From an uncultured Lachnospiraceae bacterium (GTDB lineage: Bacteria > Bacillota > Clostridia > Lachnospirales > Lachnospiraceae), in NCBI GenBank assembly GCA_900317585.1, contig ONHG01000002.1:50090-114089 (forward strand): a stretch of 64,000 nucleotides of DNA, written 5' to 3'. Both the position numbers and the translations under genes were made by a program. Within the stretch, counting starts at the first letter, position 1; each line of letters begins with the position of its first letter. Of the stretch, positions 18,213-63,286 are shown in pieces. Under the pieces are notes generated by a model. The model did no database searches. It was not told where the DNA came from and was given only the letters and a program-made list of their open reading frames with translations.

Positions 18213-18290
18213 ATTGAGAGAGGGCAAAAGTCCTCTCTCAATTCACGTTTATAAACATCAGGCAGCTATTCAGAGCAATTGTGAATAGTT
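18213..18290 (+). other. structured 5' leader of rimP with two hairpins
   Basis: Hairpin one is a perfect 11-base stem ATTGAGAGAGG (18213-18223) with its complement at 18232-18242 and no T-run, so not a plain terminator. Hairpin two joins AGCTATTCA (18264-18272) to TGAATAGTT (18282-18290) with one G-U pair. They could act in processing, stability or NusA feedback; no family was recognised. Confidence 0.45.
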
Positions 18291-56327: not shown

Positions 56328-56877
56328 CAGGCTAAAAAAGCAAAGGAGCCTTCTGGGTGCTGATGAGTGCCACAGTATGAGCCATGAAATTTATAAAAGG
56401 CTCATAGCTTTAGAGCTCGACAGGGAATATGACAACATACTTTTGTATTCAGCTATCAGAAATGAAGTGAATACTGATGAGTATTTTACCTATTTAATAA
56501 ACAAAGCAAAAAGGATATATTATCCGAGGGTTTCGGGCGATAAAATGTCATTTTACAGGGTAAGAAGCCTTGATGAGCTTAATTGTGGTTCATTTAATAT
56601 TAAAGAGCCTGATATGACGAAGGAGTATACGCAGGCGGATGGCAGGGCGCTTATGATAGTGCCGGGGCTTGCATTTTCGGATACCGGTTACAGAATCGGT
56701 TACGGAAAGGGCTTTTATGACAGATATTTATCGTCTTTCACAAAAAGAGATACTGTCATGGCAGTTGGAGTGGGCTACGATTTCCAGTTACTTAGCAGCA
56801 TGACGTTTGAAGATGAATATGACGTACCCTTAGATGGGGTGATAACAGATAAGAGAGAGGTGTTTATTGATGACTGA
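56302..56877 (+). CDS. 5-formyltetrahydrofolate cyclo-ligase
   Basis: 191 residues. [18 protein letters not shown] is the usual opening; ATP-site [15 protein letters not shown] and [26 protein letters not shown] (in parts) are the family signature. It salvages 5-formyl-THF to methenyl-THF, linking to fhs and folD elsewhere in the window. The ATG at 56302 lies inside the DUF896 gene; an earlier in-frame start at 56269 adds unrelated residues. Overlaps proA by 8 bases. Confidence 0.93.
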
Positions 56878-58126
56878 TTTAGAAAAAATTTGTGCGGATG
56901 CATACGAGGCCAGAGTAAAGATAGGAACACTGGATACGGATATCAAGAATAAGGTATTAAACGATGCAGCGGACAATCTGCTTAAGGCAGAAAAAGAAAT
57001 TCTTGAGGCAAACAAAAGGGATGTGGCCACAGCAGAGGAAAATATGAAGGCAAAGAGCATGATTGACAGGCTCTCGCTTGACCATGACAGGCTCCTTGGC
57101 ATGGCTGACGGACTCAGACAGATAGCAAAGCTTGCAGACCCTATAGGGGAAGTAATGTCTATGGCAAAGCGTCCTAATGGCCTTATTATCGGAAAAAGAA
57201 GAGTTGCAATCGGTGTTGTGGGAATCATTTTTGAGGCTCGCCCAAATGTCACATCAGATGCCTTTGGTCTGTGCTTTAAGACAGGCAACTGTGTCATATT
57301 GAAGGGTGGAAGTGATGCGATAAATACCAATATCGCAATAGTTAAGACACTAAAAAAGGCTTTAACGGACAATTTGGTTTCTGATGCTGCACTTGCACTT
57401 ATTGAGTCAACAGACAGAGAGACAACAAATGCATTTATGAAGATGGATCAGTATGTGGATGTGCTCATACCAAGAGGCGGTGCAGGACTTATCCAAAATG
57501 TGGTCAAAAATGCCACAATCCCTGTCATCCAGACCGGTACAGGCAACTGCCATGTATATGTGGACAAGGATGCAGACTTTGACATGGCTGTTAATATTAT
57601 TAACAATGCAAAGACACAAAGAATCAGTGTCTGCAATGCATGTGAGTCAATTGTAGTACACAGTGCCATAGCAGAGGAGTTTCTGCCAAAGCTGTACGAT
57701 AAGCTAAGAGAGCATCATGTACAGCTGCACTGTGATGGAAGAGCACAGGCAATTCTTGCAGGAAGAGACGATGTGACAGAGGCAGCTTCCGATGACTGGG
57801 GTATGGAGTATCTTGATTACATCATGTCGGTAAAGATTGTTGACAGTATTGATGAGGCAATCGAGCATATCAACAGATACAACACATCACATTCAGAGGC
57901 AATCGTCACAAATGATTATGACAACGCACAGAAGTTCTTAAATGAGATAGATGCCGCATGCGTTTATGTAAATGCCTCAACCAGATTTTCTGATGGAAAT
58001 GAATTCGGTTTTGGAGCTGAGATAGGAATCAGTACACAGAAGCTTCACGCAAGGGGACCTATGGGGCTTGAAGCACTGACAAGCTATAAGTATATTATTT
58101 ACGGCAGTGGTCAGATCAGGGAATAG
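56870..58126 (+). CDS. proA: glutamate-5-semialdehyde dehydrogenase
   Basis: 418 residues, aldehyde dehydrogenase fold reducing glutamyl phosphate for proline synthesis. Motifs: [22 protein letters not shown] (in parts), [21 protein letters not shown], the catalytic Cys in [12 protein letters not shown], and [24 protein letters not shown] 56870 with AGAGAGG 10 bases upstream; a TTG one codon earlier is in frame. Overlaps the cyclo-ligase gene by 8 bases. miaB begins 47 bases later. Confidence 0.96.
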
Positions 58127-58173
58127 TCAGCTAAAGTATAACAGATTTAATTTGAGAGGAAACATAATATAAC

Positions 58174-58323
58174 ATGAGCTACGATATAGATATAACAAAG
58201 ACACCACCGGCACATGAGCCTGAGAGGCAGTATTACTACATGGCAAAGGCAAAGGATTTTGTTGAAAAGAAATCTAAAGAAATCGGCCGTCCTATGACTT
58301 ATTTCGTCAAGACCTTCGGGTGA
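58174..58323 (+). pseudogene. miaB: 5' fragment of miaB, cut by the integrative element
   Basis: Only 49 codons: the frame opens with MSYDIDITKTPPAHEPERQY, typical of the clostridial tRNA-2-methylthio-N6-dimethylallyladenosine synthase N-terminus, and reaches MTYFVKTFG, directly before the first Fe-S cysteine of FGCQMN, where a TGA formed by the junction ends it. The rest of the gene (radical SAM and TRAM domains) is not in the window and should lie beyond the far end of the element. proBA-miaB order with mutS/mutL beyond is usual in the family. Unless the other end restores a start, the host lacks MiaB activity. Confidence 0.85.
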
Positions 58324-58374
58324 ATCTAAAGAAATCGGCCGTCCTATGACTTATTTCGTCAAGACCTTCGGGTG
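58271..58374 (+). repeat. perfect 52-base tandem duplication at the element junction
   Basis: Bases 58271-58322 are repeated exactly at 58323-58374. The unit is miaB coding sequence ending in TTCGGGTG. The second copy reads on in frame as FGCTMNSKNK and then stops, so the real left attachment site (attL) probably lies at the end of copy two, near GGGTGCACGATGAAC. Confidence 0.9.
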
Positions 58375-58459
58375 CACGATGAACTCTAAAAACAAGATGC
58401 CTAAAACCTTGTAAAATCAACCTTTCTTGTTAATCTAATCTTACTCATACACACGTAAA

Positions 58460-58489
58460 GAGAGCAGGCTGCCTCCTCAGCCTGCTCTC
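58460..58489 (-). terminator. hairpin at the 3' end of the serine recombinase gene
   Basis: Perfect 12-base stem, 58460-58471 with 58478-58489, loop of six, overlapping the recombinase stop; only TTTAC follows on the minus strand, so termination may be weak. Confidence 0.6.
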
Positions 58490-60167
58490 ACTCTCTGTAA
58501 AGGAACTCGTGAACGAGTCCGTTCTTAAACTCTATCGAAGCCACACGTCCGTCCAACAGAACAATCCTCTCAATCACACTGTTCACGAAATCTTTAAGCA
58601 CCTTTGCATCTACAGCACAGGCGAGCTCCCGGTAGTTGATGTGCTCACCTGATGCAATCTGATGAGCAATTAAAAATCCGGATGCAGTGGAGATGAAAGA
58701 CATATCATCGTATTTTGTATCCGCAGTGTCGGCTTCAAGAGCTGACAGCTCATTCTCTATGTCGCTGAGCGTGCCCTCAAGCTCCCTCTTAGACATCAGA
58801 TATTCTTTTTCACTCATTGCATCATCTTCAAATAAAAACAGCTTCTTGAGCCTCTCAAGCGCTCTGATGGTCTTATCTCTTTTTGCTGTGAGTGCATCAG
58901 AATCACCGGAGCGGATGACAGTATAAGGTGCAGCAGTGTACCGCTTAGGCTTGAAACCACGCACGATAGTGTCAAAGGTGACATCCAGTCCAGTATCTGC
59001 GATGCCTGCCACCTGCTCGAACTCCGGGCCGGTGAGAAGTATCTGCTCCAGATCAGAGACAGAGTGCAGCAGTTTCTTTGACTTGGAAGCCTTGACCAGA
59101 TTTGAGACATAGTTGAAGATGAAAGGTCCGAGCATCACATCAGAGATGCCCTTTGCCTTGCAGTGAATCTTTTTGTTGTGAGCTCCACACCGGTACTTGG
59201 TCGGCAAAAAGCCATCGGCTCTCGGAGTGTCCGAGTCAGAGTGGTAGAATGCTCCACACAGACCGCACACGATAAGACCGCCAAACACATGAGTCCTCTT
59301 GCTGACTATCTTACGGCCGTCCTTGCCAATTCCACGAGCGTTAGCATCCATCTGATGAGTCACCCTCTCGTAGAGTTCTCTGTCGATAAGAGGTGGAAAT
59401 ACATCCTTCACATAGATCACCTCAGACGGATCATTCTTCTTGCCTCTGGCAGATTTCCTGTAATTATAGCGATAATCACCGACATTCATAGGATTCCTGA
59501 GGAAATCAGCCACGGTCTTGCTGGTCCACTCACCGCCACGCTTGGTCGGGATGTCGTGAGCATTACAGTAATCACGCACCACACAGGTAGAGTGGCACTC
59601 ATCATAGAGCCTGTACATCATCCGGGCATATTCTGCCTCAGTATCAGAATGCACCGGGCATTGCTTCTTTGCATCCCAGTCCCAGCCATACGGCACTCTG
59701 GCACCGTTCCACTTGCCTTCAAGCGCGCGGTTCATCATTATGTCATGCACACGCTCACCTGTAAGCTTGCGCTCCAGCTCAGCAAACACCAGGATAATCT
59801 TGAGCACGGCCTCACCGATAGCGCTTGAGGTGTCGAACTGCTCATTTAAAGAAATGAAAGCCACCTTGTGCTCCTTAAAATCATTGTACATGATAGAGAA
59901 GTCCACGAGATTACGCGAAATACGGTCAATCTTGTACACCACGACATGGGATATCATGCCGGATTTGACCTTCTCAATCATCCTCTGATACTCCGGACGC
60001 TGGGTGTTCTTGCCGGAGCGTCCTGCATCCTTGAATACTTCAAAATTTTCAGTTTTAAGAAAATGCTTCACATAGTTGGAGCATTCCTGAATCTGAAAAG
60101 GGATAGAGTCTCTGTCAGCCTGTTTCCCTGTGGAAACCCTGACATAGATAGCGACAGTTTTAGACAT
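58488..60167 (-). CDS. large serine recombinase (site-specific integrase)
   Basis: 559 residues on the minus strand. N-terminal resolvase domain with nucleophile S12 in VAIYVRVSTGKQ, SRNLVDFSIMY and the E helix; then the recombinase domain (RNPMNVGDYRYNY), a zinc ribbon with four cysteines (CGLCGAFYHSDSD and later YRCGAHNKKIHC), and a coiled coil of about 410-500. The type integrates by attP x attB crossover with a two-base core. It lies 113 bases from the junction and reads toward it, as in many phage and ICE ends. A long opposite frame within it is a shadow. Confidence 0.95.
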   Translation of the reverse strand: MSKTVAIYVRVSTGKQADRDSIPFQIQECSNYVKHFLKTENFEVFKDAGRSGKNTQRPEYQRMIEKVKSGMISHVVVYKIDRISRNLVDFSIMYNDFKEHKVAFISLNEQFDTSSAIGEAVLKIILVFAELERKLTGERVHDIMMNRALEGKWNGARVPYGWDWDAKKQCPVHSDTEAEYARMMYRLYDECHSTCVVRDYCNAHDIPTKRGGEWTSKTVADFLRNPMNVGDYRYNYRKSARGKKNDPSEVIYVKDVFPPLIDRELYERVTHQMDANARGIGKDGRKIVSKRTHVFGGLIVCGLCGAFYHSDSDTPRADGFLPTKYRCGAHNKKIHCKAKGISDVMLGPFIFNYVSNLVKASKSKKLLHSVSDLEQILLTGPEFEQVAGIADTGLDVTFDTIVRGFKPKRYTAAPYTVIRSGDSDALTAKRDKTIRALERLKKLFLFEDDAMSEKEYLMSKRELEGTLSDIENELSALEADTADTKYDDMSFISTASGFLIAHQIASGEHINYRELACAVDAKVLKDFVNSVIERIVLLDGRVASIEFKNGLVHEFLYRE

Positions 60168-60360: not shown

Positions 60361-60759
60361 TTATGCCTCTTTCAGTACGTCCCCTTTTGCAACATAGCCC
60401 AGTTCAATAAGTTCATCGGCACGCTCCAGGAGCCGTTGCTTGCCCTTGTCGTTCATATGCCGGTATTTAGCAAGCAACTCACTTTCATCTGCTTTAATAA
60501 GAGATGTAGGCTCTGGCTTAATTGATACTTCTTGGTCACCATCAATGACGTCAAGTAATGAATCTAATGACATATTCATTGCAGAGGCAATACATTTCAT
60601 CTTTTCTATAGATGGAACTATAGGTTTTTTAGTCTTAGGGTGTTCATTTTTCTCCAACATCGAAATATATCCATTACTTATTCCGGATAATCGAGAAAAA
60701 TCTCGGAGAGAAAGCTCATGTTCTGTTCGATATTTTTTTACAAGCTCACCGAGAGTCAT
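60361..60759 (-). CDS. XRE family helix-turn-helix repressor
   Basis: 132 residues on the minus strand. Residues 1-65 are a Cro/CI-type HTH (LGELVKKYRTEHELSLRDFSRLSGISNGYISMLEKNEHP, read in parts); residues 85-132 form a helical tail (DKGKQRLLERADELIELG) used in related repressors for dimerisation. No LexA-type peptidase domain is present, so a RecA-cleavage switch is not expected from this protein. It is divergent from the small XRE gene across a region full of TTTAACATATT repeats, which makes a lysis-lysogeny type switch likely. Confidence 0.9.
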   Translation of the reverse strand: MTLGELVKKYRTEHELSLRDFSRLSGISNGYISMLEKNEHPKTKKPIVPSIEKMKCIASAMNMSLDSLLDVIDGDQEVSIKPEPTSLIKADESELLAKYRHMNDKGKQRLLERADELIELGYVAKGDVLKEA

Positions 60760-60786: not shown

Positions 60787-60924
60787 TTTAACATATTATA
60801 CACATGTTTAATAAATAAATCAATATAAAACTTTAACATATTGAACAATGCTAAATTATACATGTTTAACATATTAAAATAATTTTTGTTAAACATATTG
60901 ACATGTGATGTTTAACATGTTAAG
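60787..60924. promoter_or_regulatory. operator region: five copies of TTTAACAT(A/G)TT between divergent regulators
   Basis: Copies of a TTTAACATATT-type word begin at 60787, 60832, 60865, 60889 (TTAAACATATT variant) and 60911; the last is a perfect palindrome TTAACATGTTAA (60912-60923). A related site, CGCTTAA-TATG-TTAAGCG, is at 61156-61173. Spacing is irregular (24 to 45 bases). They very likely bind one or both XRE proteins. Confidence 0.7.
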
Positions 60925-60926
60925 CT
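60898..60926 (+). promoter_or_regulatory. promoter of the rightward regulator and small-gene operon
   Basis: Consensus TTGACA (60898-60903), 17-base spacer, TAAGCT (60921-60926). Two operator copies cover it, which fits repression. Confidence 0.55.
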
Positions 60927-60961
60927 ACAGAAAACAGAGAAACAGAAAGGAGATAAAAACC

Positions 60962-61153
60962 ATGGGCTATAAAATTAAGGAAATCCGTGAAGAAATTGGA
61001 ATGACACAGGCTGAATTATCAACAAAGTCCGGTGTCTCACGTACCATTATTAATGGATTAGAAACAGGAAGGACCACAACTACGACAACAGATACCCTTA
61101 AAAAGATTGCAGCAGCCTTAGATAAAAAGGTAAGTGAAATTTTTTTTAGCTAA
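60962..61153 (+). CDS. small XRE family regulator
   Basis: 63 residues, a Cro-sized HTH: YKIKEIREEIGMTQAELSTK, SGVSRTIINGLETGR and DTLKKIAAALDKKVSEIFF. The ATG at 60962 follows AAAGGAG by 8 bases; an upstream in-frame ATG at 60905 overlaps the operator palindrome and lacks a ribosome site. First gene of the rightward set; a palindromic site lies just after its stop. Confidence 0.88.
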   Translation: MGYKIKEIREEIGMTQAELSTKSGVSRTIINGLETGRTTTTTTDTLKKIAAALDKKVSEIFFS

Positions 61154-62428: not shown

Positions 62429-63286
62429 ATGGCATACATCCAGGACACTTATTACCTGGGGGACTACATAGCAACTGAGATAAAGTTCATAGGCAGGAAT
62501 GGAGCCAAGGGTGAGAGGAGAGCCAAGAAGATAAAAGCCACTCCCGAGCAGATGGCAAGGCAGAATCAGTGGACGAGGGAAAAGAAAGAGAAATACCTGA
62601 TACTTGCTAACTTCCGTACAGGTGATGTATGGGTGACTCTCAAGTACCCAAGAGGGACAAGACCGGATGCTGAGAGAATCAAAAGGGACTGGAAAGTATT
62701 CACAACGGAAATGAGAAATCTATACAAGAAGCTGGGCATTCCGTTTAAGTGGGTGAACCGCATGGAGATAGGCAGGTTCGGAGGCCCACATATACATTTC
62801 CTCTGCAATCGCGTGGACAACATCGACACACTCATAAAGGATATATGGCACAAGACCATTGCTGATCTGATTGTCCCGGGCAAAAATTACGTGAATATTG
62901 CTCCATATGATTCAGACGGAGCAAAGGAAGTGGCAGAGTATCTGACAGCCAAGCCAGACAAGAAGGGCATAGAGGGACAGCTCAATCTCTTCGGAGAGGA
63001 AGAACAGAAGGTGTTCTGCAAGGTGAGCAGTTCAAGGAACCTGGTGAGACCGGAGCCTAAGCGCAAAAAGTACGCACACTGGACCATGGCAAGGTTCTTC
63101 AAGGATGGCATCAAGCCGGACAAGGGCTACTACGTGATGCCGGACACCGTGAAGGTGGGCGTCAACAAGTGCACAGACTATTCATACCTCTACTACATGC
63201 AGCGGACTATCTCAGACGGCAAATCCCCCGGGAACCGCATAAAGCCCCAATGGGAGGCAGATTATACACATTATGAAAAAAGTTAA
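62429..63286 (+). CDS. HUH-type rolling-circle replication protein (Rep)
   Basis: 285 residues. Motif I DVWVTLKYPRG near 66-76, motif II GGPHIHFL with the HUH pair H121 and H123, and motif III VAEYLTAK with a single catalytic Tyr Y171 and K175. This order fits single-tyrosine Rep proteins of filamentous phages and rolling-circle plasmids (the G2P/ORF2-like rolling-circle replication-associated group). It should nick one strand at an origin and start replication of the excised circle. No helicase domain. AGGAAA is 6 bases upstream; its end overlaps the next gene by 14 bases. Confidence 0.8.
   Translation: MAYIQDTYYLGDYIATEIKFIGRNGAKGERRAKKIKATPEQMARQNQWTREKKEKYLILANFRTGDVWVTLKYPRGTRPDAERIKRDWKVFTTEMRNLYKKLGIPFKWVNRMEIGRFGGPHIHFLCNRVDNIDTLIKDIWHKTIADLIVPGKNYVNIAPYDSDGAKEVAEYLTAKPDKKGIEGQLNLFGEEEQKVFCKVSSSRNLVRPEPKRKKYAHWTMARFFKDGIKPDKGYYVMPDTVKVGVNKCTDYSYLYYMQRTISDGKSPGNRIKPQWEADYTHYEKS

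Follow-up and report, generated by a model that had tools for sequence, protein, structure and literature searches.

Why should the 5' end of miaB carry an exact tandem copy of 52 of its own bases at the very edge of an integrated element? The stretch of DNA analyzed here (the window; 64,000 nucleotides) comprises bases 50090-114089 of contig C25 in a draft genome of 2,574,089 bases, 52 contigs, and 86.63% completeness. A repeat search of the window returns two 52-nt copies, 100% identical and with a spacing of 52 (58271-58322 and 58323-58374, forward strand), confirming the sequence-only reading, which had described an exact 52-base tandem copy of miaB sequence, cut where the codon for the first Fe-S cysteine begins. 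Sequence and gene order suggest that the host is a Lachnospiraceae near Agathobacter/Eubacterium rectale, presumably from the gut. An exact 52-mer repeat is not a product of chance. Exact two-copy tandem repeats with periods of 14 to 599, sought in 103 stretches covering 1.76 of the genome's 2.57 Mb (1.75 Mb non-N), number 24 with the miaB pair included, so tandem duplication as such is not unique in this genome; 11 have a period of at least 30, and the pair at the miaB junction is the sole case of period 52. The feature that chance does not account for is the place of the repeat, whose copy boundary falls exactly at the crossover point.

The host flank to the left holds proA (glutamate-5-semialdehyde dehydrogenase; 56867-58126, forward strand), a 419-amino-acid (aa) open reading frame whose product scores above cut-off with both NF001221 (598.2 bits) and TIGR00407 (497 bits). 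Next to it lies the displaced 5' end of native miaB (58174-58323, forward strand), which starts at 58174 and encodes 49 residues before a TGA at 58321-58323 that spans the copy boundary and is met because of the 52-bp repeat. Reading on from copy two gives TGC ACG ATG AAC, the in-frame continuation into C T M N that had been proposed, and this frame stops at 58412-58414 in phage DNA. In this assembly, then, the repeat is genuine, and it forms the left boundary (attL) of a prophage within miaB.

The earlier description of the locus as the left junction of an integrative element with an adjoining serine recombinase is borne out by a 559-aa protein encoded on the reverse strand at 58488-60167, in which the resolvase (PF00239, 124.6 bits), recombinase (PF07508, 74.1 bits), and zinc ribbon (PF13408, 27.6 bits) domains all exceed their cut-offs, the combination expected of a large serine integrase of phage type. 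Where the integrase gene ends, a 12-bp inverted repeat (58460-58489, unstranded) may serve as its terminator; a terminator scan did not pick it up. Deeper in the element are genes for an HTH repressor-like protein (60361-60759, reverse strand) and an HTH Cro/C1-like protein (60905-61153, forward strand), both above cut-off for PF01381, followed by one for a replication-associated protein (REP_ORF2-G2P; 62429-63286, forward strand; PF23343, above cut-off).

The last base of the window is the end of C25 and lies inside the element, and the right junction is on contig C49. Exact 99-bp overlaps connect the end of C25 to the start of C42 and the end of C42 to the end of C49 (48 of 52 contigs compared, the four masked ones excluded). 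Since C42 is joined by overlaps of the same kind to C47 and C36, it is common to two related prophages. The path C25-C42-C49 is therefore best treated as probable; it is supported by the remainder of miaB, which the sequence-only reading had suggested looking for at the far end and which is indeed found on C49 together with the right junction. Along this path the prophage would measure about 35 kb (~34.6 kb; 5.6, 11.3, and 17.9 kb minus overlaps). The eight C49 proteins scanned against PHROGs match a terminase, portal, scaffold, major head, tape measure, tail, holin, and endolysin, and one of the two C42 proteins scanned matches a replication initiator. Terminase, portal, head, tape measure, and lysis genes together identify the element, by gene content, as a tailed-phage prophage, in our judgment of the siphovirus type.

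Both copies of the 52-bp sequence end in the same 8-base crossover core, TTCGGGTG, at 58315-58322 in copy one and at 58367-58374 in copy two, the latter forming a complete attL with the phage arm that follows (58375-58396, forward strand). This core is common to the left end, the right end, and the empty site of the closest relative (G015, described below); 3' of it, host DNA reads TTCGGGTG followed by TCAG, and phage DNA reads TTCGGGTG followed by CACG. The phage arms CTTGTTTTTA (right end, on C49) and TAAAAACAAG (left end, 58387-58396) form a perfect 10-bp inverted repeat that is symmetric about the T and G of a TG dinucleotide, and because both arms are so placed, the crossover is put at this TG, which opens the codon for what we take to be the first Fe-S cluster ligand of MiaB. 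Serine integrases cut with a 2-base stagger. A role of the central dinucleotide at the crossover is described for these enzymes in PMC3783163. The attP deduced from the two ends, together with the hybrid attL and attR, fits a large serine integrase, and the 104 bp form the left junction of a tailed-phage prophage whose integrase would act at the TG with which the first Fe-S cysteine codon begins. Within the inner phage arm, window positions 58375-58384 read CACGATGAAC here and TCAGATGAAC in an occupied relative (L159), and the outer arm is identical in the two.

Two relatives show what the site looks like elsewhere. G015, whose genome is a single contig and which came out closest in a search of 60 genomes of the genus, is 96.7% identical over the flank at 57002-58322 (1,321 bp), and its site is empty, with one copy of the 52-bp sequence and a MiaB of 479 aa; it is not the empty-site relative with a preexisting duplication that the sequence-only reading had named as fatal to its case. 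IMG/VR 2698536600 (L010/L159) encodes an integrase 95% identical to ours and has the same insertion in miaB with a single copy at its left junction. The proA flank upstream of miaB is homologous in both. The single copies in G015 and L159 indicate that the duplication is neither ancestral in the host nor required by the phage, and as far as these two relatives show, it lies outside the integration system.

Other relatives of the integrase are sparse. At E ≤ 1e-50, matches occur in 2 of 145 genomes, one being the source genome itself and the other encoding a protein that is 37% identical, with no MiaB match adjoining it; a further contig search gave one match (27% identical). A degenerate MiaB 5'-peptide pattern was found in IMG/VR in L158 and L159 only. 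L158 (2799112800) was considered as another instance of the right junction, but it matches C49 at 100% identity over 12,678 bp and is taken to represent the same genome. L160 (3300048015), a second pattern match, does not resemble the element and is unrelated.

At the right junction, the order on C49 after the endolysin gene is a promoter-like site, a ribosome-binding site (RBS; GAGAGG), an ATG with 51 miaB-like codons, and the native remainder of miaB (NCBIfam TIGR01574, 511.5 bits). The promoter-like site (TTGCAA-18-TATACT, preceded by TG) matches at 9 of 12 positions, and one such site is present against a mean of 1.6 in shuffled sequence, so it is no better than shuffling yields. Phage-borne and native MiaB starts share 35 of 46 aligned residues; at the codon level, 16 are identical, 19 synonymous, and 11 changed in amino acid. 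The differences fall on the first codon position 9 times, on the second 3 times, and on the third 25 times, a bias indicating that the phage-borne 5' piece has been maintained as a protein-coding sequence. An element-borne start whose 51 codons adjoin native miaB is a feature of gene-restoring 5'-end integration. The in-frame fusion also expected of such integration is absent from this assembly, in which TTCGGGT stands twice in tandem and, for that reason, the phage-borne start is out of frame with the miaB remainder. The core occurs twice at both junctions, the first copy at the right one lacking its last base. The 1.75 Mb examined contain 143 exact 7-bp tandem pairs, or about 1 per 12 kb, so one situated exactly at the crossover is unlikely to have arisen by chance.

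The origin of the phage-borne start was sought in several collections. No close donor was recovered from the 60 genus genomes (4 matching, our own included) or from 299 family genomes (9 matching, our own included), where the match with the best E-value in another genome is 70% identical over 131 bases and, among matches longer than 30 bases, identity reaches at most 81% (over 58 bases). The peptide matches 5 of 50,697 phage records, each of which encodes a nearly full-length MiaB and is therefore taken as host DNA; no record among the 50,697 has an isolated miaB 5' end. The MiaB model also matches one more protein of this genome, which is RimO and not a second MiaB. An element-borne mimic of miaB had been put forward as the source of copy two. 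Such a mimic exists, but it is at the other end of the element and only ~73 to 75% identical, and the idea is rejected because copy two does not differ at any base from copy one, which is host sequence.

Integration separates the body of miaB from its native promoter and its 49 initial codons, and the phage-borne promoter-like site, RBS, and 51 codons may then take over as the start of the gene; the usual purpose of such a start is presumably to keep MiaB working in the lysogen. The sequence-only reading had instead proposed a genetic switch, with MiaB off when the prophage is inserted and on when it is excised. The native 5' end is indeed severed from the remainder, and the fusion at the right end is out of frame in this assembly, as a switch would have it. 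Nevertheless, the insertion replaces the 5' end of miaB, with a promoter-like site and a third-position bias in the replacement, and the switch is therefore not supported; with the 52-bp repeat in place, moreover, excision would leave a stop at codon 50, and the authors of published parallels expect the target gene to remain functional. We regard a switch as very improbable. If neither anomaly is present in the cell, the phage-borne start would keep MiaB working in the lysogen, whereas if both are, MiaB is lost when the prophage is integrated, and excision via copy two would leave a stop at the copy boundary. An off/on switch of the kind proposed results in neither case.

The contig shared between the two prophages gives access to the second one, which offers a comparison within the same assembly. 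Reached via C42 and lying outside the window, it encodes a 518-aa serine integrase (C47:10636-12192; L098) and splits a host gene between C47 (9715-10650) and C36, where the stretch concerned is 18233-18248 (L087); the protein encoded by the target has only a weak Pfam match, below cut-off. No short tandem pair occurs at its right junction. Its left junction has one 6-bp tandem pair, which is considered part of the site because the opposite arm carries the matching, mirrored sequence. The 16-bp right attP arm of this second prophage, CGCAAATGCAATTTGG, also occurs in the miaB prophage (L002:1778-1793, on C49), just after the endolysin gene and before the phage-borne miaB start, where it looks like an attachment site left over from a swap of the integrase/att module.

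Because anomalies are present at both crossover points of the miaB prophage, a shared cause connected with recombination there is likely, suggesting either assembly trouble in a sample of mixed integrated and excised forms or faulty strand exchange. Both a slip and an assembly fault had been among the options first listed, and both remain among the explanations. On our joint reading, a serine-integrase prophage has its attL at the TG of miaB and brings a replacement 5' end, and the duplication is accidental, most likely a fault of assembly or consensus; we hold this reading to be probable, as is the narrower view of the 52-bp repeat as an accidental or assembly scar. Coexistence of integrated and excised forms in the sample could have caused an assembly or consensus fault at the junction that produced the 52-bp copy, with the 7-bp tandem copy at the right junction as its counterpart. 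A junction query matched two places only in this genome, with no contig carrying attB or attP, so that coexisting excised forms are an assumption. An assembly origin is favored by the position of the anomalies exactly where the attB, attP, attL, and attR sequences part, by the draft state of the genome, by the loss of frame in a conserved gene, and by the absence of the duplication from relatives. Against it, blunt joining at the right junction predicts 8 bp where 7 are observed, a repeat of period 52 occurs nowhere else in the 1.76 Mb, attB and attP contigs are missing, and the junctions of the related second prophage lack a duplication of this kind. Against the gene-restoring part of the reading stand the out-of-frame start in this assembly and a promoter-like site no better than those in shuffled sequence. 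An overlap of 52 bp that assembly merely left unmerged is ruled out, since contig ends share 99 bp, not 52, in 16 of the 20 pairs listed. A run of 45 N in contig C48 may show scaffolding or masking and was counted for neither side.

Were the 52-bp copy real, it would record a one-off faulty excision or strand exchange, in which one end, cut at the crossover, was ligated to a site lying 52 bp upstream of the other end, and the circle with this piece of host miaB reintegrated; alternatively, a cut left arm could have been end-joined to the sister chromosome. Copy one ends directly after the TG crossover dinucleotide, and the start of copy two bears no relation to it, a pattern expected if one of the joined ends was legitimate and the other illegitimate; both copies have the same local variants relative to G015 and L159. 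The second anomaly at the other junction and the clean junctions of the related prophage are also in its favor. However, the duplication is missing from the occupied relative (IMG/VR 2698536600), the 7-bp anomaly at the right end is unexplained by the same single event, inspection of the upstream break revealed no microhomology, and if both anomalies were real, MiaB would be lost when the prophage is integrated. Faulty exchange is thus a possible but less probable source, and we favor an assembly origin at somewhat better odds. It is unlikely that both duplications are real products of misjoined integrase cuts, which would make this a locked lysogen with normal MiaB in neither state; if true, the junctions would be a fossil of a failed serine-integrase strand exchange repaired by the host.

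Ordinary replication slippage would have placed a tandem duplication at attL by coincidence. The 11 pairs with periods of at least 30, the 52-bp pair among them, show that such duplications arise in this genome, and of the five other pairs checked, one (on contig C10) is a simple duplication of 36 bp that G015 lacks; the exact coincidence of copy boundary and crossover and the separate duplication at the other junction make slippage improbable here. The five come from the 23 other tandem pairs and were compared with G015. In those on C16 (L117:19684-19745, 31 bp) and C6 (L058:1399-1432, 17 bp), the block homologous to G015 has its limit at a copy edge or within 2 bases of one: either it stops within 2 bases of where copy one begins, or its first base is that of copy two. 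On C51 the block starts within copy two, and the pair on C14 belongs to a repeat family and is uninformative. This control speaks slightly in favor of junction faults. When a draft genome shows a tandem duplication at the edge of a prophage, the reads should be checked before any biological reading.

In the literature searched, whose scope left out most subscription journals, no description of a prophage in miaB was found. The best match of the integrase to a named phage is to that of Faecalibacterium phage FP_Brigit (37.8% identity over 99%), and an unnamed fecal phage record reaches 38.4%. The dusA-specific islands have a tyrosine-type integrase, the host of Burkholderia phage JC1 is distant from that of the miaB prophage, and SXT/R391 integrative and conjugative elements (ICEs) supply a new 5' end and promoter that keep PrfC working. 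By analogy, the insertion in miaB is of the known kind that replaces the 5' end of its target, as exemplified by the dusA islands and by JC1 in rimO. Like the miaB prophage, JC1 uses a serine recombinase, enters the 5' end of a gene of the methylthiotransferase family, and provides a new gene start from phage DNA, and its authors predict that the target gene stays functional (PMC9144972). The target of JC1 is rimO rather than miaB, and JC1 keeps the frame and alters only 6 of the first 10 residues, whereas here 51 codons, a promoter-like site, and an RBS are phage borne. In the dusA islands and prophages, as here, the 5' end of a tRNA modification gene is replaced by element-borne sequence, in that case with putative -35 and -10 elements, and the authors suggest that dusA function is kept (PMC4482086); the integrase family and the gene differ from those of the miaB prophage. 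The SXT/R391 ICEs likewise insert close to the 5' end of prfC, a conserved gene of translation, but are conjugative elements with a tyrosine integrase (PMC2654960, PMC2791158). The locus provides a candidate integrase together with the sequences of its attP and attB, and miaB joins dusA, rimO, and prfC among the translation and tRNA modification genes whose 5' ends receive elements that bring a replacement start.
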